A DNA stretch of 24,263 nt from positions 1 through 24,263 of IMG/VR virus record IMGVR_UViG_3300005337_000046; one strand, 5' to 3'. The stretch comes from a virus. Shown here in pieces: positions 13-21,964 of this stretch (positions within the stretch are counted from its first letter, which is position 1; each line of letters starts with the position of its first letter). The notes beneath the pieces are model-generated. The model was not told where the DNA came from. It saw only the letters and a list, made by a program, of their open reading frames with translations, and searched no databases. A program made the position numbers and the translations under genes.

Positions 13-273
13 ATGAATTTTATTGAATTAAATTTAAATTCATATTATGAAAGAAAATTCTTAATAAGAAAAGAAAATATTTCTTATATATATCAGAGTA
101 TATATAAGGATAAAGATAGAGTTTCTATAAACACATATGTCATATTTAAAGATTTTAATCTTTCCGAATCAAAAGAAAAAGAAGAAAATCGACATGTATT
201 TAATACATATGATCAAAAAGAAATTTGTGTAAAAGAAAGCTATGATATAATTAAAAAATTATTGGAGGAATAG
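13..273 (+). CDS. small conserved phage protein, FlbD-like layout
   Basis: This 86-residue acidic and lysine-rich protein is the first of the packed rightward genes. The frame is closed by a TAA just before the ATG, so the start lies in the window; a weak AGGG precedes it. The beginning (MNFIELN, then KFLIRKENISYI) and the end (ICVKESYDIIKKLL) resemble the general pattern of very small FlbD-like phage proteins, in which a beta hairpin is followed by a conserved V-x-E-S/T-Y-x-x-I segment. The middle contains a charged, low-complexity insertion (SESKEKEEN). The role is unknown; a regulatory or accessory early function is inferred only from position. The similarity is by eye and weak. Confidence 0.6.
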   Translation: MNFIELNLNSYYERKFLIRKENISYIYQSIYKDKDRVSINTYVIFKDFNLSESKEKEENRHVFNTYDQKEICVKESYDIIKKLLEE

Positions 274-280
274 TGTTAAA

Positions 281-790
281 ATGAATGACAAAACAGAGGA
301 CGCTATGGAAGAGATACATAATATGCATATGAAAGATGTATTAAAGCGTTTTATTTATTCGAATTTAACTCATTTATTACCATTTAATTCAAAAATAGAT
401 GAAGGAATTGAATTTAGATTTGAATCTATATTCAAAAAACCAGAGGAGGAAAATAAATTTCATAGCAGATTAGCATTAAGGTATTCAAATACAGAAATTA
501 AAGCTATTTTAAATAGTAATATAAATAAAATTTACATAATTAATGATAATAGAAATTTTAAAAAACATGAATTTATTGGTTTTATTAAATCCATTGAAAC
601 AGAGATGATTAATGATAGTAGTTATATTAATTACCATAAATTTAACAATTTAAGAATAATGGTTAATGCTGAAGAATTTCCAGATATTTCTAAAATAGAA
701 TATCCAGAAAGTATCACTCATATGTATAATGGAATTCAAGTTAAACCAAAGAAATATAAAATAACATTAGAGGAATTACCAAATGATTAA
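281..790 (+). CDS. hypothetical protein
   Basis: A 169-residue soluble protein that I do not recognise. It has no signal peptide, membrane segment or clear motif; it is rich in Asn, Ile, Lys and Glu, in keeping with the local AT richness. GGAGG at 264-268 lies 12 bases upstream of the ATG, a longer spacing than usual, but no better in-frame start exists. Its last eight bases overlap the start of the next gene, which suggests translational coupling within the rightward operon. Continuous reading frame and gene packing make it a probable real gene. Confidence 0.7.
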   Translation: MNDKTEDAMEEIHNMHMKDVLKRFIYSNLTHLLPFNSKIDEGIEFRFESIFKKPEEENKFHSRLALRYSNTEIKAILNSNINKIYIINDNRNFKKHEFIGFIKSIETEMINDSSYINYHKFNNLRIMVNAEEFPDISKIEYPESITHMYNGIQVKPKKYKITLEELPND

Positions 791-1103
791 CCTAACACAA
801 CCCGGAATAGATTTTTCAGATTTTTTAGAAATTTTAGGATTGTCTAACGATGATTTAATAAAAATAGTTAGTGAATCTCAAAACGAAGATGATTTCATAG
901 AAGAACTTTGCATAGATGAATGCATAGAACAGTTTGATTTGGATGAAAATACATCAATAAAAGTGAAAAATAGAATGAGAGACCTAGCATATTATAAATA
1001 TAAAAAAATTAAGGAATATATAAGATTAGGTAAAGCTGATATGCTTGGAGATTATGGATATATTGATGAATTAAAAATGAAGGAATTAATAAATGAAAAA
1101 TGA
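783..1103 (+). CDS. hypothetical acidic protein
   Basis: A 106-residue protein, strongly acidic in its first half (clusters such as NEDDFIEE and DECIEQFDLDE) and basic in the middle (KVKNRMRD...YKYKKIK). It looks entirely helical by composition. No family is recognised. The start overlaps the end of the upstream gene, with GAGG in the last codons of that gene serving as ribosome binding site, and its end overlaps the next gene by 11 bases. The overlaps on both sides argue for one polycistronic message. Confidence 0.65.
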   Translation: MINLTQPGIDFSDFLEILGLSNDDLIKIVSESQNEDDFIEELCIDECIEQFDLDENTSIKVKNRMRDLAYYKYKKIKEYIRLGKADMLGDYGYIDELKMKELINEK

Positions 1104-1500
1104 ATGGGAAACAGAAGCAGATGAAGAAAATTTTGTTTATAAAGGATATAATTGTAGAATTAGAAGAGTTCCTGATAAGTTACATTTATGCGGATATGTT
1201 CAAATTACTGAAAAAGATGGAAATAAATTAAATGTTGATAATATTGAAGTACATGGAGGAATTACATTTAATGAATATGCTCATCTTGCTCCATTACTTA
1301 AATTTCCTTTTTTGGGACGATGGATCGGTTTTGATTGCATGCATGCGGGTGATTTTGTGCCAGGATTTTACTCTTTAGAACATTGTAATGAAATAGATTC
1401 TAATGAAATATATAGAAATTTTGAATATGTTAGAAATGAGATAAAAAAATTAGTTGATCAATTGATAAAAATATGGGAATTAAAAAATGAAAATAAGTAA
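1093..1500 (+). CDS. conserved phage protein with HGGITF / GFDCMHAGD motifs
   Basis: A 135-residue protein belonging to a family seen in many unrelated phages and some bacteria, recognised from a characteristic pair of motifs: VHGGITF (residues 53-59) and WIGFDCMHAGD (77-87), followed by a helical tail (RNFEYVRNEIKKLVDQL, 109-125). The conserved His, Asp, Cys and Gly residues suggest a binding or catalytic pocket, but I know of no established biochemical function for the family. AAGGA at about 1079-1083 precedes the ATG. It overlaps both neighbours by 11-14 bases. The family assignment is from memory of the motif pattern. Confidence 0.75.
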   Translation: MKNEWETEADEENFVYKGYNCRIRRVPDKLHLCGYVQITEKDGNKLNVDNIEVHGGITFNEYAHLAPLLKFPFLGRWIGFDCMHAGDFVPGFYSLEHCNEIDSNEIYRNFEYVRNEIKKLVDQLIKIWELKNENK

Positions 1501-1843
1501 AAAACAAAGATATCCAGCCGAATTAATCGAATATGCAATACTTTTACACAGAAACTATCGATTAACATTTAGAGATGTTTCTTATGTTATGGCAATGCGT
1601 GGAATTGATATTTCTCATAAAACAATATTTGAATGGGTTAAAAAATATTCCGAAGAAGTTAGAAATATGAGAATTAAAAATACGAATGATTATTCAATCA
1701 ATGTTTCTCAAGTAAGTTGTAATGGTGAAAGACTTTTTATGTATAGAGCCATTAATTCTAAAAATAAAACTCTCGATATTTTTTTCCAAAAAAGAAAAAA
1801 TGAAAATAGAGCAAAGAAAATATTTTCCAAAATGGAGATTTAA
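1487..1843 (+). CDS. truncated IS6-family transposase-like protein, probably DNA-binding only
   Basis: This 118-residue protein matches the N-terminal half of IS6/IS26-type DDE transposases: a basic start with FxxP-like RYPAELIEYAI, a helix-turn-helix at about residues 26-52 (LTFRDVSYVMAMRGIDISHKTIFEWV), then a strand pair resembling the start of the catalytic domain (GERLFMYRAINSKNKTLDIFF, 80-100). Full IS6 transposases are about 220-240 residues; this one ends where the second catalytic Asp region should follow. In the usual VDET motif the first catalytic Asp is replaced by Asn (N72 in SINVSQV). It cannot be an active transposase. The frame is intact, has a ribosome binding site and abuts the next gene, so I infer a co-opted DNA-binding regulator; a decaying remnant is the alternative. 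Confidence 0.8.
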   Translation: MKISKKQRYPAELIEYAILLHRNYRLTFRDVSYVMAMRGIDISHKTIFEWVKKYSEEVRNMRIKNTNDYSINVSQVSCNGERLFMYRAINSKNKTLDIFFQKRKNENRAKKIFSKMEI

Positions 1844-1845
1844 TA

Positions 1846-2064
1846 ATGAAAAAAGATTGGATTAAGCGTCTTCCTCCAGGAGAATATGATATAAAACAAA
1901 TAAAAGAATTCGCCAATTTATCAACGCATGGTTCAGCTAAAATAGTTCTTATGAAATATGGTGCTACAGTAAGAAAAGAACCTGTAAAAGGAACAAATTT
2001 AATGAAAGATATATTCATTTGGCCTGGATTTATAGTAAAAATTAAGGATAAAAATAAAAATTGA
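1846..2064 (+). CDS. small hypothetical protein, possibly helix-turn-helix
   Basis: A 72-residue basic protein starting two bases after the stop of the transposase-like gene, with GGAG at the end of that gene as its ribosome binding site. Residues 13-40 (EYDIKQIKEFANLSTHGSAK...KYGA) have the spacing of a small helix-turn-helix, followed by a short strand-like segment (IFIWPGFIVKI). This could be a compact DNA-binding protein, but no family is recognised. It is the last of the six packed rightward genes before a probable promoter. Confidence 0.6.
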   Translation: MKKDWIKRLPPGEYDIKQIKEFANLSTHGSAKIVLMKYGATVRKEPVKGTNLMKDIFIWPGFIVKIKDKNKN

Positions 2065-2089
2065 TGACTTTTTTTAAAAAGTATGATAC
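2061..2089 (+). promoter_or_regulatory. putative sigma70-type promoter for the 2119-2361 gene
   Basis: TTGATG (2061-2066) is followed after 17 bases by TGATAC (2084-2089), or after 15 bases by TATGAT (2082-2087). The -35 element overlaps the TGA stop of the upstream gene. The implied start near 2095 would leave a leader of about 25 bases ending in AAAGGGAGG. AT-rich DNA yields chance matches, so this is only plausible. Confidence 0.4.
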
Positions 2090-2118
2090 CATCATTCAAA
2101 TAAATAAAGGGAGGTAAA

Positions 2119-2361
2119 ATGTCTGAATCATTGGTTATTTCATTGTTGAACATCATTATAAAGGTCTTGCCGAGTGCAATTACATTTGTTGAAGATTTGG
2201 TTGGAAATGACGGCTCAATCTCTCCAGAACACGTTCCTCAAATTTTATCGCACATGGCTGACTTATCAAAAGCTTCAGCAGATAATGCACACTCTAGCGT
2301 TGATACTGCGCCTTCTGCTGATGCTGCTCAACCTGTGGCTCATGAGTCACACGCTCCGTAA
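2119..2361 (+). CDS. small protein with hydrophobic N-terminal helix and Ala/His-rich tail
   Basis: An 80-residue protein with the best ribosome binding site of the rightward block (GGGAGG at 2109-2114, four bases before the ATG). Residues 5-29 form one hydrophobic or amphipathic helix (LVISLLNIIIKVLPSAITF plus VEDLVG); the rest (about 45-80) is low-complexity, rich in Ala, Ser, Asp, His and Pro, and probably disordered. Its base composition is less AT-rich than the six genes to its left. It sits alone between a possible promoter and a strong terminator, so it may be expressed independently. It could be a small membrane-active protein or a minor virion protein; nothing in the sequence decides, and I assign no function. 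Confidence 0.65.
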   Translation: MSESLVISLLNIIIKVLPSAITFVEDLVGNDGSISPEHVPQILSHMADLSKASADNAHSSVDTAPSADAAQPVAHESHAP

Positions 2362-2428: not shown

Positions 2429-2462
2429 AAAACCCCTCGAAATTGAAATTTGAGGGGTTTTT
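2429..2462. terminator. bidirectional intrinsic terminator between the convergent blocks
   Basis: AAAACCCCTC (2429-2438) pairs perfectly with GAGGGGTTTT (2452-2461), and the inner AAATT/AATTT can extend the stem with one bulge. It ends in a T run on the plus strand and, read from the minus strand, also ends in four T after the stem. It lies 10 bases past the stop of the leftward 2472-4898 gene and about 70 bases past the rightward 2119-2361 gene, so it can end both transcripts. A near-copy lies at 4928-4960. Confidence 0.85.
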
Positions 2463-2471
2463 GTCGTTATT

Positions 2472-4898
2472 TTATTGGTAATATTCTGTCACGATGATGA
2501 CACCTGATGCTCCAGCACCGGCAGGTTGAGCACCAACTCCTATTCCTGCTCCCCCCGCCGTGCCACCGGCGCCTAGAGTCCAGCTATAATTTGCAGCGGG
2601 AATGATGAAATCGAGATATCCTCCTCCTCCGCCCCCGGTTCCCGCTTCACAATATAAATTTGTGAGTGAATCGATGGCAACCCAAGCGCCTGCACCACCG
2701 CCTCCTGTGTTGGGAATAGCTGCTAAATCCAATGGGCCTCCTGCACCATTTCCTCCGCCTGCAAATAAACTACTTCCCCCATTCCCTCCAACTAAATAAG
2801 TTTGCATTTGATAGGGGTGAGCTGCAAAGCCCGAGTCTAGCGTCAAAAGATTGTTGGTCCCACCGGTTTGACCTGTATATTTTTGACCATATCCGATTGT
2901 CGTTGTGCATGTACCACCCGGTCCTCCGCCGCTAGTTATTGTACCACCTGTACCGCCACGTGCAGTTAACCCAGGGCCAAATGTTGTATTTCCACCGTTT
3001 CCTCCATCGACCCCATCTCCGCTATTTGCTGAGCCTTGACCACCACCACCTCCGCCGCACATCTGAACTCTCAAATATAACGGTTGTCTTGGAGATGTCG
3101 GAAGAGTGTAGCTACCTGAACCTGGAGTAGAGAATACTTGCTGTGTCGGCGCTAAAAACGTTGCTAAAATAGCTGCGTGTGTGAACGCAGTTGTCGCAAT
3201 TTGAGTTGTACTTGTACTTGCTGGACTTGCTGTTGGAGCAGTAGGAGTTCCCGTAAGTGCTGGACTATTTAAATCCGCTTTTAACGCTAAGGCAGCGCTA
3301 ACGGCAGATGTATCTGCTTTTGAAGAAAGTCCAGTATCAACGTAACCTTTTGTTGCTGCATCAGTAGACGCAGAAGGTGGAGGGACAGTTACTGTTCCCG
3401 TGAATGTAGGCGAAGCCAGATTAGCCTTCAAAACGAGATTATTTTGAACGTAAGCTGTCGTTGCTATTTTAGTTGTATTATCCGCAGTAGAAGGCGTTGG
3501 TGCTGCGGGTGTTCCTAAAAAAGTTGGGCTAGTAAATGGAGCAGCTCCTGTGACCTGATTGTAACTATAATCAAAAGCTTGCGGTGTAACAGGTCCAGTT
3601 CTACCATTAAAACTAGTAACTCCAATACTTGTATGATTTACTACCCAATTTGCAGGAGTTTGTCCCGGTATATCAATGAGAGCTAAAATCTGATCACCCA
3701 CACTGACAGGTTGGCTTCCGGGAAGAGTTCCAGCAACGCTAATTACCCAAAAATCTCCTTTGGAAATGGGCGAACCACTTTGATCAAGCGTGGGAAATGT
3801 GCCACCGCTCGCGTCATATCCCCCCTGAAATTCAAATGCTGCTGCGACGGCGGCAAGAATTGCTGCTTGCGTAGCAGCACTTGTCATTAAATGAGAATTA
3901 TCATTTGAACTCGAGTCAGTTGTTTTTGAAACGCCCGAATCTTTTACATTTCCATTTCCATCCATCGAAACTAAATTATCTGAAACTGGCGAGGAAATAG
4001 GAATTTGAACAGCAACTTGATTTGATGATAAGCTATTTACGGTTGATTTTAAAAGATGTTGCAATAAATCGCTATCTTCTGTCTCCGATAAAACATCATC
4101 TATTTCAAGAATATTACTTGTTATTCCACCAGTTGCCCCAGTGTCATACATATTACTGGGAACATTTAAAATAATTCTCAATAATTGTCCGGCAGCACTT
4201 GCTTGATCGAAAGCTTCTCCTATAATTGGTAAACCACTTGTACCAATAACTTCTTTGACTCCGTAAGCAATGTCCGGATCTAATGTTACCATGCTTCCAC
4301 GTGTGATCGCGGCGGTCGAATAAAGCCAAATACAGACGCCTGTTTTAGCAATTTCGCAGCAAGATCCTGCTGGAAAATTTTGAGATTTTTGATCGTAAAC
4401 GATATAACCATTCGGCATATCCGTTCCGGTCGAAATTATTGTTGGAATTCCATATGGATTATTTACGAATTTTATGGGTTGGCCAGGATATAACGGTATA
4501 GATTGACTTGCATCTACTTGCGCAGCCACGACATTTTTTGGTCCACTTTGTAAATCCAATTCTCCCAAAATTGCAGCCATCGCAAATTGGTTCATACCCT
4601 GTGAAGCAGGCAATGTCGTCACTATAAATGCTGTTGATTCAACTGTAGATGTTGTTGAATCAGTATATACAACTTTGTAAAAATAAGTTGTGTTTGGAAC
4701 TAGACCAGAATTATTTAAAATTAAACCTGTTGCATTTAATATAAGATTTCCGCTGCCGGGTGTGAACCCGGCGCCGCTCGTATCGCGATACCATTGCACC
4801 GTATATGGCGCCGTACCGCCGGTCGCTTGTGTCGTAGATAGTTTTGCGCTGTTAGATCCTGCGGAAATTAGCGATAAAGTACCTGCTGTTAAAACCAT
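2472..4898 (-). CDS. large modular fibre/adhesin with decoration-protein N-terminus and Gly-rich tip
   Basis: An 808-residue mosaic. Residues 1-98 are an Ig/fibronectin-like domain (GGTAPYTVQWYRDTSG); 100-250 are a beta domain (KNVVAAQVD, MPNGYIVYDQK, RGSMVTLDP). Both together equal the whole protein encoded at 21203-21964. Residues 355-422 hold a FQGGYDASGGTFPT module common in phage fibres; 425-450 contain GVTSFNGRTGPVTP; 455-580 hold three fibre repeats of the SPTFTGTPTAPT...TTQIATTAF type. From 582 comes a glycine-rich domain (PTQQVF, CGGGGGG) ending in VIIVTEYYQ. The repeats show that it is a trimeric fibre-type receptor-binding protein; the N-terminus suggests attachment where the capsid-proximal protein attaches. 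AAAGGA precedes the ATG. It is the last gene of the leftward operon, with a terminator on each side. Confidence 0.85.
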   Translation of the reverse strand: MVLTAGTLSLISAGSNSAKLSTTQATGGTAPYTVQWYRDTSGAGFTPGSGNLILNATGLILNNSGLVPNTTYFYKVVYTDSTTSTVESTAFIVTTLPASQGMNQFAMAAILGELDLQSGPKNVVAAQVDASQSIPLYPGQPIKFVNNPYGIPTIISTGTDMPNGYIVYDQKSQNFPAGSCCEIAKTGVCIWLYSTAAITRGSMVTLDPDIAYGVKEVIGTSGLPIIGEAFDQASAAGQLLRIILNVPSNMYDTGATGGITSNILEIDDVLSETEDSDLLQHLLKSTVNSLSSNQVAVQIPISSPVSDNLVSMDGNGNVKDSGVSKTTDSSSNDNSHLMTSAATQAAILAAVAAAFEFQGGYDASGGTFPTLDQSGSPISKGDFWVISVAGTLPGSQPVSVGDQILALIDIPGQTPANWVVNHTSIGVTSFNGRTGPVTPQAFDYSYNQVTGAAPFTSPTFLGTPAAPTPSTADNTTKIATTAYVQNNLVLKANLASPTFTGTVTVPPPSASTDAATKGYVDTGLSSKADTSAVSAALALKADLNSPALTGTPTAPTASPASTSTTQIATTAFTHAAILATFLAPTQQVFSTPGSGSYTLPTSPRQPLYLRVQMCGGGGGGQGSANSGDGVDGGNGGNTTFGPGLTARGGTGGTITSGGGPGGTCTTTIGYGQKYTGQTGGTNNLLTLDSGFAAHPYQMQTYLVGGNGGSSLFAGGGNGAGGPLDLAAIPNTGGGGAGAWVAIDSLTNLYCEAGTGGGGGGYLDFIIPAANYSWTLGAGGTAGGAGIGVGAQPAGAGASGVIIVTEYYQ
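4149..4898 (-). repeat. copy 1 of the Ig + decoration-like anchor module
   Basis: Encodes residues 1-250 of the 808-residue adhesin. Compared with the copy at 5930-6679, only four of the first 50 residues differ (positions 7, 8, 9 and 13), while the DNA shows several third-base changes. It is more diverged from the free-standing copy at 21203-21964. Confidence 0.9.
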
Positions 4899-4984: not shown

Positions 4985-6679
4985 TTAAAACCATTCACTG
5001 ATAACTAGTCCGCCGGCATCGCCGTCACCGCCATCAGTTCCACCTGTTCCGCCAGTTCCCCCGAGACCTTTCTCTCCTACAACATAATCTAGAGTAATTG
5101 GTGATAAAATAAGATTATTTATCCATGCACCGCCGCCTCCACCCAAACCAGCATTAACAAGAGTTTGGGTATCAGTATCTATATAAATTGGTGCCCCTGA
5201 TCCTCCCGATCCAGTTCCTGCTACTCCTCGACATTTATCCGGGTCTATGTTTGAAGTCCCGCCACCTGAAAATATCCCGGCACCTCCCCCACCCCCAGGA
5301 AAATATAGATTAATGCGTAGAGGAGTAGAAAAACCAGCCAGAAATGCGCTTCCTGATTCATTCCCATCTTGTCCATTAGCTGCACTCCCCGGATTTGAAG
5401 AAGGAATTCCTGTCACGCTTAGCGCACCGCCATCGCCTTTCACAACGGTGCCCCCTTTTCCACCCCCTAGTGTAATACTTATACCTTCCCCTGAATTTAT
5501 AAGTGTCGTCTCTGTGCCATCCGTTCCGTATTGTGTGGGGGTAGGAGAGTTTGCAATAGACGCACTGCCTCCACCACCTCCACCCCACGCTTGTATGGAA
5601 AGATATTTTACAGAGGGGCTACTGGGAGTGTATGTACCGGTATCCCCTGGCGCAAAGACATAAGATATTGGTAATGTAAATCCGCTAGAAGAATTTATTG
5701 CCCATTTCGCTGGATCTTGCCCTGGATTATCAAAAATTGCAGTGATTTGATCACCGACATCTACGTGTTGTGTATCAACTAAATCTACTGATTCTGGTAA
5801 ATCTCCTGCAACGCTAATTATCCAGTATTGACCTGCTGTAATTGGATTTCCGAATTGATCTGTGGTCGGAAATGTGCCACCACTCGCATCCCAAACTCCT
5901 TGGAATAAATTTGCGCCGCGTGAATCAAACATATTACTGGGAATATTGAGTATAACCCGAAATAATTGTCCATATCCTGTAGCTTCATCAAATGCCTCTC
6001 CAATGATCGGAAAACCTGAATTTCCGCTTGCTTGTCTTACGCCAGATGCAATTATTGGATCGAGTGTAACCATTGATCCCCTGGAAATTGCTTCTGTCGA
6101 ATAAAGCCAAATGCAGCTTTGTGTACGTGCAATTTCGCATCGCGCACCCGCGGGAAAATTTTGTGATTTTTGATCATATGCAATGTAACCATTAGGCATC
6201 TCTGTGCCCGCTGCTATTACAGTTGGAATTCCATTAACATTGTTCATAAACTTTACCGGTTGACCTGGATAAAGTGGAGTTGCTTGTGTGACGTCGATTT
6301 GAGCTGCAACGACATTTTTTGGCCCTGTTTGCAGATCCATTTCTCCTAAAATTGCTGCCATGCCTAATTGGTTTACGTTTTGGGATGCTGGCAATGTTGT
6401 TGTCGAAACAGCAGTAGAATTTATTGTATTGGGTACCGCATCTGTATATTTTACTTTATAAAAATATGTCACATTTGGAATTAAATTCACGTCATCTAAA
6501 ACGAGAGAAGTTGCGCCAGAAATCAGATTTCCGCTGCCGGGTGTGAACCCGGCGCCGCTTGTATCGCGATACCACTGCACTGTATATGGCGCTGTACCTC
6601 CAGTTGCTTGTGTCGTAGACAATTTTGCGCTGTTTGAACCCGTTGAAATTAATGTAATTACGCCTGCTGTTAAAACCAT
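4985..6679 (-). CDS. modular fibre/adhesin paralogue, shorter shaft
   Basis: A 564-residue paralogue of the 2472-4898 product. Residues 1-250 are the same Ig plus decoration-like anchor. Residues 259-333 are the WDASGGTFPT...GDQITAIFDNPG fibre module. The SPTFTGTPTAPT repeats are missing. From 338 a glycine-rich tip begins (ISYVFAPGDTGTYTP, WGGGGGG) and ends in GGLVISEWF, different from the TEYYQ end of the other two. So the two paralogues share an anchor and have different shaft lengths and tips. The ATG has AAAGGA upstream. It follows the tail fibre gene by 31 bases without a terminator in between and is followed by one. Likely role: virion surface adhesin, attached to head or tail by the shared anchor. 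Confidence 0.85.
   Translation of the reverse strand: MVLTAGVITLISTGSNSAKLSTTQATGGTAPYTVQWYRDTSGAGFTPGSGNLISGATSLVLDDVNLIPNVTYFYKVKYTDAVPNTINSTAVSTTTLPASQNVNQLGMAAILGEMDLQTGPKNVVAAQIDVTQATPLYPGQPVKFMNNVNGIPTVIAAGTEMPNGYIAYDQKSQNFPAGARCEIARTQSCIWLYSTEAISRGSMVTLDPIIASGVRQASGNSGFPIIGEAFDEATGYGQLFRVILNIPSNMFDSRGANLFQGVWDASGGTFPTTDQFGNPITAGQYWIISVAGDLPESVDLVDTQHVDVGDQITAIFDNPGQDPAKWAINSSSGFTLPISYVFAPGDTGTYTPSSPSVKYLSIQAWGGGGGGSASIANSPTPTQYGTDGTETTLINSGEGISITLGGGKGGTVVKGDGGALSVTGIPSSNPGSAANGQDGNESGSAFLAGFSTPLRINLYFPGGGGGAGIFSGGGTSNIDPDKCRGVAGTGSGGSGAPIYIDTDTQTLVNAGLGGGGGAWINNLILSPITLDYVVGEKGLGGTGGTGGTDGGDGDAGGLVISEWF
5930..6679 (-). repeat. copy 2 of the Ig + decoration-like anchor module
   Basis: Encodes residues 1-250 of the 564-residue adhesin. 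Residues 15-50 are identical to copy 1 (4149-4898). Both copies carry a GC-rich inverted repeat, GCCGGG-TGTGAA-CCCGGC (here 6536-6553, in copy 1 4755-4772), that is absent from the third copy at 21203-21964. Confidence 0.9.
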
Positions 6680-21197: not shown

Positions 21198-21224
21198 AAG
21201 CTTTAGCTATCTGTTCTAAAGCTT
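21198..21224 (-). terminator. hairpin between decoration-like and capsid genes, possible attenuator
   Basis: AAGCTTTAG (21198-21206) pairs perfectly with CTAAAGCTT (21216-21224) around a nine-base loop. The stem contains the TAA stop of the 21203-21964 gene and, read leftward, is followed by AATTAATTTTTAATG. The stem is AT-rich, so full termination is unlikely; partial attenuation or 3'-end protection of the upstream message is possible. Confidence 0.45.
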
Positions 21225-21964
21225 GGTGCATTCAATACAACTCTTATTAATTGTCCAGAAGCAGTGGCTTGATCAAAAGCATATCCAACAATTGGAAGAG
21301 TAGAACTTCCAGTGACTTGATGAACTCCAGACGGAACATATTGATCAAGAGTAACTTGTGTACCACGTGTAATTGCAGCGGTAGAGTATAGCCACATGCA
21401 AGTCCCAGTGGATGCAATTTCACATCTCATTCCAGCGGTAAATGCAGGTGTTTTTTGGTCATAACAGATGTATCCATTGGGCGTATTTGTGCCCGCAGCT
21501 ACAACTGTTGGGATACCATTTGCATTATTTACGAATTTAATTGGCATACCGGGATATAGAGAAGTTGCTTGTGTTGTATCAATTTGCGCGGCAAAAACGT
21601 TTGTCGGACCAATTCTTAAATCGAGAGTTCCGACGATTGCTAACATCGCAAATTGGTTAGGATTTAATGATGCTGGAGTTGTTGTAACAGCTAGTGCAGT
21701 GTATGTAACAGACGCAGGAACTGCATCTGTCGCAACGACTTTATAATAATAAACAGTATTAGGAATTAAATTTGTATCGCTCAGCGTTAAAGCTGTTTGA
21801 CCAGTTAAAATGTTTGATCCGCTGGGGGTAAATCCTGCACCAGATGTGTCTCTATACCACTGATAAGTATATGGTGCTGTACCACCTGTTGCGGCTGTAG
21901 CAGAAAGTTGTGCCGAATTCGGCCCAACGAAGACGGATGTAATCACGCCTGCTGTAATTGACAT
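21203..21964 (-). CDS. capsid-proximal decoration-like protein, free-standing anchor module
   Basis: A 253-residue protein between scaffold and major capsid genes, the usual place for a capsid decoration protein. Residues 1-98 form an Ig-like domain (AATGGTAPYTYQWYRDTSGA); 100-250 form a beta domain (IGPTNVFAAQIDTTQATSLY, TPNGYICYDQKTPAFTAG, TRGTQVTLDQYVPSGVHQ, PIVGYAFDQATASGQLIRVV) whose R-G-x-x-V-x-L-D and G-x-A-x-x-x-A landmarks recall DUF2190-like decoration proteins. The same 250 residues form the N-termini of the two adhesins at 2472-6679. It probably binds the outside of the capsid with the Ig domain displayed. AAAGGAG lies before the ATG. A minor fibre base is the alternative. Confidence 0.75.
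   Translation of the reverse strand: MSITAGVITSVFVGPNSAQLSATAATGGTAPYTYQWYRDTSGAGFTPSGSNILTGQTALTLSDTNLIPNTVYYYKVVATDAVPASVTYTALAVTTTPASLNPNQFAMLAIVGTLDLRIGPTNVFAAQIDTTQATSLYPGMPIKFVNNANGIPTVVAAGTNTPNGYICYDQKTPAFTAGMRCEIASTGTCMWLYSTAAITRGTQVTLDQYVPSGVHQVTGSSTLPIVGYAFDQATASGQLIRVVLNAPSFRTDS

Follow-up and report, generated by a model that had tools for sequence, protein, structure and literature searches.

The window analysed here is the whole of the 24,263-bp virus record IMGVR_UViG_3300005337_000046, and by its sequence the contig is an incomplete fragment of a phage resembling phi1422, whose host is Bdellovibrio. A block of late genes runs along the minus strand from 24144 down to 2472 and is kept in phi1422-like relatives at roughly 35-77%. 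The major head protein shares 48% identity with its counterpart in Bdellovibrio phage phi1422 and 66% with those of the closest environmental records, and relatives of it are present in MAG contigs of mixed taxonomy too. Two tail-fibre-like genes, 2472-4898 and 4985-6679, share an N-terminal domain of roughly 250 residues with the product of 21203-21964, which is encoded beside the major head protein; this sharing suggests that the domain has been duplicated and shuffled.

Convergent with the late genes is a cluster of small plus-strand genes at the left end of the window, where the GC content is 21-26% up to about position 2100, higher in the last gene, and 28-50% elsewhere in the window. The low GC content of positions 1-2100 fits recently acquired or exchanged genes, for which it would be expected. 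Only one gene of the cluster, 1093-1500, has homologues in phi1422-like relatives, and none were found there for the remaining cluster genes. It is likewise the one AT-rich cluster gene whose homologues are widespread among phages: it belongs to phrog_2164 (unknown function), and related genes occur in Bacillus phage G and in phages of Staphylococcus and Streptococcus. The features considered below are as follows:

13..2361, plus strand: small-gene cluster, with genes at 13, 281, 783, 1093, 1487, 1846 and 2119
1487..1843, plus strand: ORF5, encoding a 118-aa half protein derived from an IS6 transposase (profile matches and a homologue in contig G771)
1517..1660, plus strand: predicted helix-helix-turn-helix (H-HTH), residues 11-58 (AlphaFold2, pLDDT mostly above 90)
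1616-1660, plus strand: predicted third (recognition) helix, residues 44-58 (AlphaFold2 model)
1694..1828, plus strand: residues 70-114, a putative beta-beta-beta-alpha unit left from the RNase H-like catalytic domain (model, integrase-core match and selection on this half)
1700..1702, plus strand: codon of N72, where IS6 transposases have their first catalytic Asp and the homologue in G771 has Glu
1846..2064, plus strand: 72-aa gene kept with ORF5 in G771 (49-50% identity; sequence comparison and codon maximum likelihood), possibly encoding a winged HTH
2429..2461, plus strand: terminator-like hairpin at the end of the cluster, with a 13-bp stem and then a T-rich tail; about 3 such sites are expected by chance in the scan

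The earlier note had described ORF5 as the N-terminal part of an IS6 transposase, domesticated by the phage, with Asn at the first catalytic Asp, the other half gone and no IS6 terminal repeats around it, and each part of that description held up. Residues 5-116 match positions 2-117 of 202 in the NF033587 transpos_IS6 profile (E 4.3e-25), and PF13610 (DDE_Tnp_IS240) matches as well (E 1.7e-6). By these sequence comparisons the IS6 homology is far beyond chance, with the score of 88.6 bits falling below the curated NCBIfam cut-off of 125 for the IS6 family. Identity to public or active IS6 transposases is 25-36%, and to plasmid IS6 transposases 31-35%. All 36 of the sampled IS6 transposases hold Asp at the position of N72; ORF5 further has Val73 in place of a nearly invariant Glu and Tyr69 in place of the preceding Trp. 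There is no complete DDE triad, the first Asp being N72 in ORF5 and Glu in G771 and the second Asp and the Glu belonging to the missing half, for which the profile gave no other match in the entire record. Around the window copy, 14-bp terminal inverted repeats starting with GG, as in IS6 and IS26, were sought: the IS26 terminal repeat was matched at 9/14 positions at best, against a shuffled average of 9.4, and no inverted pair around ORF5 was better than in shuffled sequence.

The position of ORF5 among its neighbors proved exact when checked again: it starts 14 bases inside the upstream reading frame (end 1500) and stops 2 bases before gene 1846. It does have a ribosome-binding site of its own, TGGGAATTAAAAAATG, but one weaker than those of most neighbors, where GGAGG, AGAGG or GGAG precedes the genes at 281, 783 and 1846. 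The product is strongly basic, with a pI of about 10.

An AlphaFold2 model built on a five-sequence alignment (pLDDT 86, pTM 0.77) has helices at residues 11-24, 28-37 and 44-58, strands at 70-78, 81-89 and 95-101, and a final helix at 106-114. The N-terminal H-HTH of IS6/IS26 transposases is thus present, both in the helices of the model and in a profile match that begins at position 2. The closest solved structures to the HTH are transposase and regulator HTH domains, led by ISCth4 (rmsd 1.0 over 43 residues, Z 6.5), with further likenesses to the DNA-binding domains of DeoR, SorC, Mos1 and SETMAR. Residues 64-118 resemble the first half of integrase/RNase H cores, matching the retroviral integrase core at Z 5.5; all of the VIA fold matches lie below Z 8 and so indicate consistency, not proof. 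Foldseek searches of PDB and BFVD with ORF5 gave no significant match, and comparing its sequence with PDB entries brought up no solved structure related to this half.

A second copy of the same form was reached by scanning with the neighboring gene 1846-2064, on a 58-kb viral contig, G771 (58,105 bases). At 3616-3972 of the part of that contig designated L144 lies a 118-aa homologue that is 44% identical to ORF5, where chance identity at this composition is 7%, that ends at the same residue, and that has Glu at the Asp position. Without selection, a 118-codon frame would be open by chance with a probability of 5e-6 at this composition. When the two proteins are compared, the N-terminal arm (SKKQR) and the recognition helix (SHKTxxEWV) are identical at 14/18 positions against 38/99 elsewhere (p 0.002, from two members), and beta-strand 2 with its flanks (76-90) is the best conserved stretch outside the HTH (12/15); these segments were picked after viewing the alignment. 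Both members share K45 and E49 in the recognition helix, where IS6 transposases mostly have E or S and most often R, respectively; that the two residues depart from the IS6 norm suggests that the DNA target has changed. The HTH fold and the conservation make DNA binding by ORF5 likely, and a role as a transcription regulator may be inferred from the same two features.

In a tree with IS6 transposases, ORF5 and its G771 homologue are monophyletic with support 100/99, and their stem is 1.4-1.9 substitutions per site long. They have in common the changes W69Y, Y84F, L85M, D90N and E32S at near-invariant IS6 positions, and D72 is lost in both. Given these shared derived changes and the long stem, the common ancestor was, most simply, already a non-transposase. 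The dN/dS comparison that the earlier note had called for was made by pairwise codon maximum likelihood (GY94-type, F3x4). Omega for the ORF5 pair is about 0.01-0.05, to be read as a bound and not an estimate because synonymous sites are saturated, and omega = 1 is rejected for the whole protein (2dlnL 58) and for the HTH half (2dlnL 40) and the C-terminal half (2dlnL 22) each on its own. As neither member has the catalytic residues, this purifying selection is on the non-mobile form. Part of the evolution along the stem may have taken place while the protein was still a transposase. The clade, its long stem and the shared losses go some way towards answering the concern that the constraint itself is left from that past.

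The clade as defined here has two members, which sit at unrelated places, in phages with different structural genes; element ends were sought around the window copy only. G771 lacks any match to the major head protein of the window, and the content common to the two contigs consists mainly of tail-fibre-like sequences and the homologues of ORF5 and 1846-2064. Because both genes are common to contigs that differ in this way, the pair has either moved between phages or been kept during replacement of the structural genes. ORF5 is absent from 26 phi1422-like or otherwise related records, many of them incomplete, and no IS6 elements were found in the related phage records. Single-sequence scans of genome contigs and viral contigs with ORF5 gave no relative. 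Matches to degenerate patterns for the HTH and the conserved hairpin were limited to G771 itself, noise and ordinary IS6 elements, and samples of Bdellovibrionota, Pseudomonadota, the phylum including Leptospiraceae, and Bacteroidota held ordinary IS6 elements and no further clade member.

One protein considered as a relative was rejected for its very long branch of its own in the tree, and is treated as separate for that reason. It is a 531-aa protein in a genome from the Bdellovibrio phylum (UBA4095; L085:250-1845, minus strand), in which an IS6-like transposase N-half is fused to PAS domains. Its first Asp is replaced by His, its IS6 part stops at about the same place as ORF5, and a chemoreceptor-like gene lies nearby; it is apparently a separate exaptation of the same IS6 half.

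The suggestion that ORF5 and the gene at 1846-2064 form a regulatory pair fared less evenly. Order and strand are the same in G771, where the ORF5 homologue lies upstream of the 1846-2064 homologue, but three genes stand between them there. The neighbor is itself under constraint, with omega of about 0.06 against its G771 homologue (2dlnL 33). The helix-turn-helix proposed for it is no more than hinted at: profile searches gave no family match, and its model (pLDDT 73) has no significant fold match. Elsewhere in G771 (L147; 6845-7123, minus strand) a protein with WLRDLPPGKYTIKQLEEVTG resembles the start of the 1846-2064 product (WIKRLPPGEYDIKQIKEFA), and by such sequence likeness 1846-2064 is possibly part of a wider family of small proteins that may have an HTH. 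As for the lysogeny control that had been proposed for the pair, nothing in the window points that way.

G771 also contains the 10-bp palindrome AAGCATGCTT six times, all within 2.6 kb (50732-53311; L149:10732-13311). The first copy starts just past the end of the ORF5 homologue's reading frame; three of the six directly precede a ribosome-binding site. By chance, about 0.45 occurrences of the AGCATGCT core would be expected over all of G771, and in 60 shuffles the commonest GC-containing 10-bp palindrome reached at most three copies. These repeats are candidate operators or stoperator-like sites. The palindrome is absent from the window, and a search for any palindrome common to G771 and the window found none; the absence makes for a weak link to the ORF5 protein, and the sites may belong to another regulator. 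A connection between the repeats and the ORF5-type protein is accordingly doubtful.

Taken together, the sequence evidence points to ORF5 as a genuine exapted, non-catalytic half-transposase, a working protein and not debris. That it acts as a DNA-binding regulator is the best explanation of the whole, to which we assign a probability of roughly 60%. An ancestral phage would have taken the 5' half of an IS6 transposase gene, encoding the H-HTH and the first beta-beta-beta-alpha unit, and the catalytic residues and the ability to transpose would then have been lost, as sequence, phylogeny and selection all indicate. DNA would be bound through the HTH together with the new conserved basic arm SKKQR, with the half RNase H unit perhaps serving as an oligomerisation or stability module, and the protein would regulate transcription of phage early or accessory genes, probably jointly with 1846-2064. 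A bolder version, which we consider unlikely, would make ORF5 part of a family of phage regulators built from the IS6 front half, a DDE-transposase analogue of the TnpB-derived TldR proteins. ORF5 and 1846-2064 would then pass together, as one module, from phage to unrelated phage, and the regulator would act in a stoperator-like manner on several palindromic operators (AAGCATGCTT in G771) distributed over an early gene cluster.

Other explanations start from the same observations. An early protein that binds a host protein, for takeover or anti-defence, and has lost DNA binding would suit the setting of ORF5 in an AT-rich cluster whose genes are small and lineage-specific, as is usual for early or accessory regions, as well as the high conservation around strand 2. 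Yet conservation is among the highest in the recognition helix and the basic arm, the product has a strongly basic composition, and ORF5 matches no defence or anti-defence family, which leaves this function quite unlikely; fold, conserved arm and helix, and charge favor the DNA-binding regulator. The retained IS6 DNA-binding fold and first part of the catalytic domain, and the occurrence of full-length IS6 elements in some phage records and bacteria, could instead mean that ORF5 inhibits IS6 transposition in trans, binding IS6 ends or poisoning transposase multimers and so shielding the phage from insertion. Such an inhibitor is decidedly improbable: K45 and E49 differ from the sampled IS6 enzymes, and at the low identity to active IS6 proteins, with no such element found in the records of related phages, ORF5 is unlikely to bind IS6 ends or IS6 subunits.

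The truncation, the lost Asp and the absence from related phages would fit a passing remnant left by a recent IS6 insertion, the case that the earlier note had named as fatal to its proposal. That case fails, and a remnant is very improbable, given the same form in a second phage, the common stem and omega far below 1, as well as the lack of IS6 ends nearby and a nearest active IS6 that is about 32% identical. It is extremely improbable that ORF5 belongs to a split transposase. As the contig is incomplete, a C-half could lie at a distance in the phage, but the first Asp is replaced (Asn or Glu), neither a C-half nor IS6 terminal repeats are found in the window, and in G771 the N-half query gave only one further match, a short one in the HTH region of the probable small terminase gene.

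Exaptation of transposon proteins is well known. A literature search found no report of a phage family derived from the DNA-binding half of an IS6/IS26 transposase, though such absence is weak evidence. The IS6/IS26 transposases themselves (Tnp26; Harmer and Hall 2019, PMC6807381) share with ORF5 the N-terminal H-HTH and the DDE domain's initial beta-beta-beta-alpha unit, in an alignment that spans all 118 residues, whereas ORF5 is a conserved phage gene without the DDE triad, C-half or terminal repeats and with other recognition-helix charges. TldR proteins, phage-encoded RNA-guided regulators derived from nuclease-dead TnpB (PMC13418256), are likewise transposon proteins that lost catalysis and were adopted by phages, in their case as transcription factors; unlike them, ORF5 comes from a DDE transposase, of which it is a small, HTH-bearing half, and nothing indicates a guide RNA. 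SETMAR, the domesticated Hsmar1 mariner transposase (PMC6326780), retains sequence-specific DNA binding in the HTH domains of its exapted transposase, and its HTH fold resembles that of ORF5, but it is eukaryotic, with a full-length transposase domain fused to a methylase. Cluster O mycobacteriophages (PMC4351075) carry many copies of one palindrome in intergenic regions, much as G771 carries AAGCATGCTT, though sequence and host are unrelated and no binding protein is named in the text consulted.

IS26 matters clinically, and ORF5, as a naturally isolated and stably predicted half, could offer a tractable way to study the DNA-binding domain of IS6 transposases. If ORF5 does regulate early genes, it would represent a route from a DDE transposase to a phage regulator, parallel to that taken by TldR.
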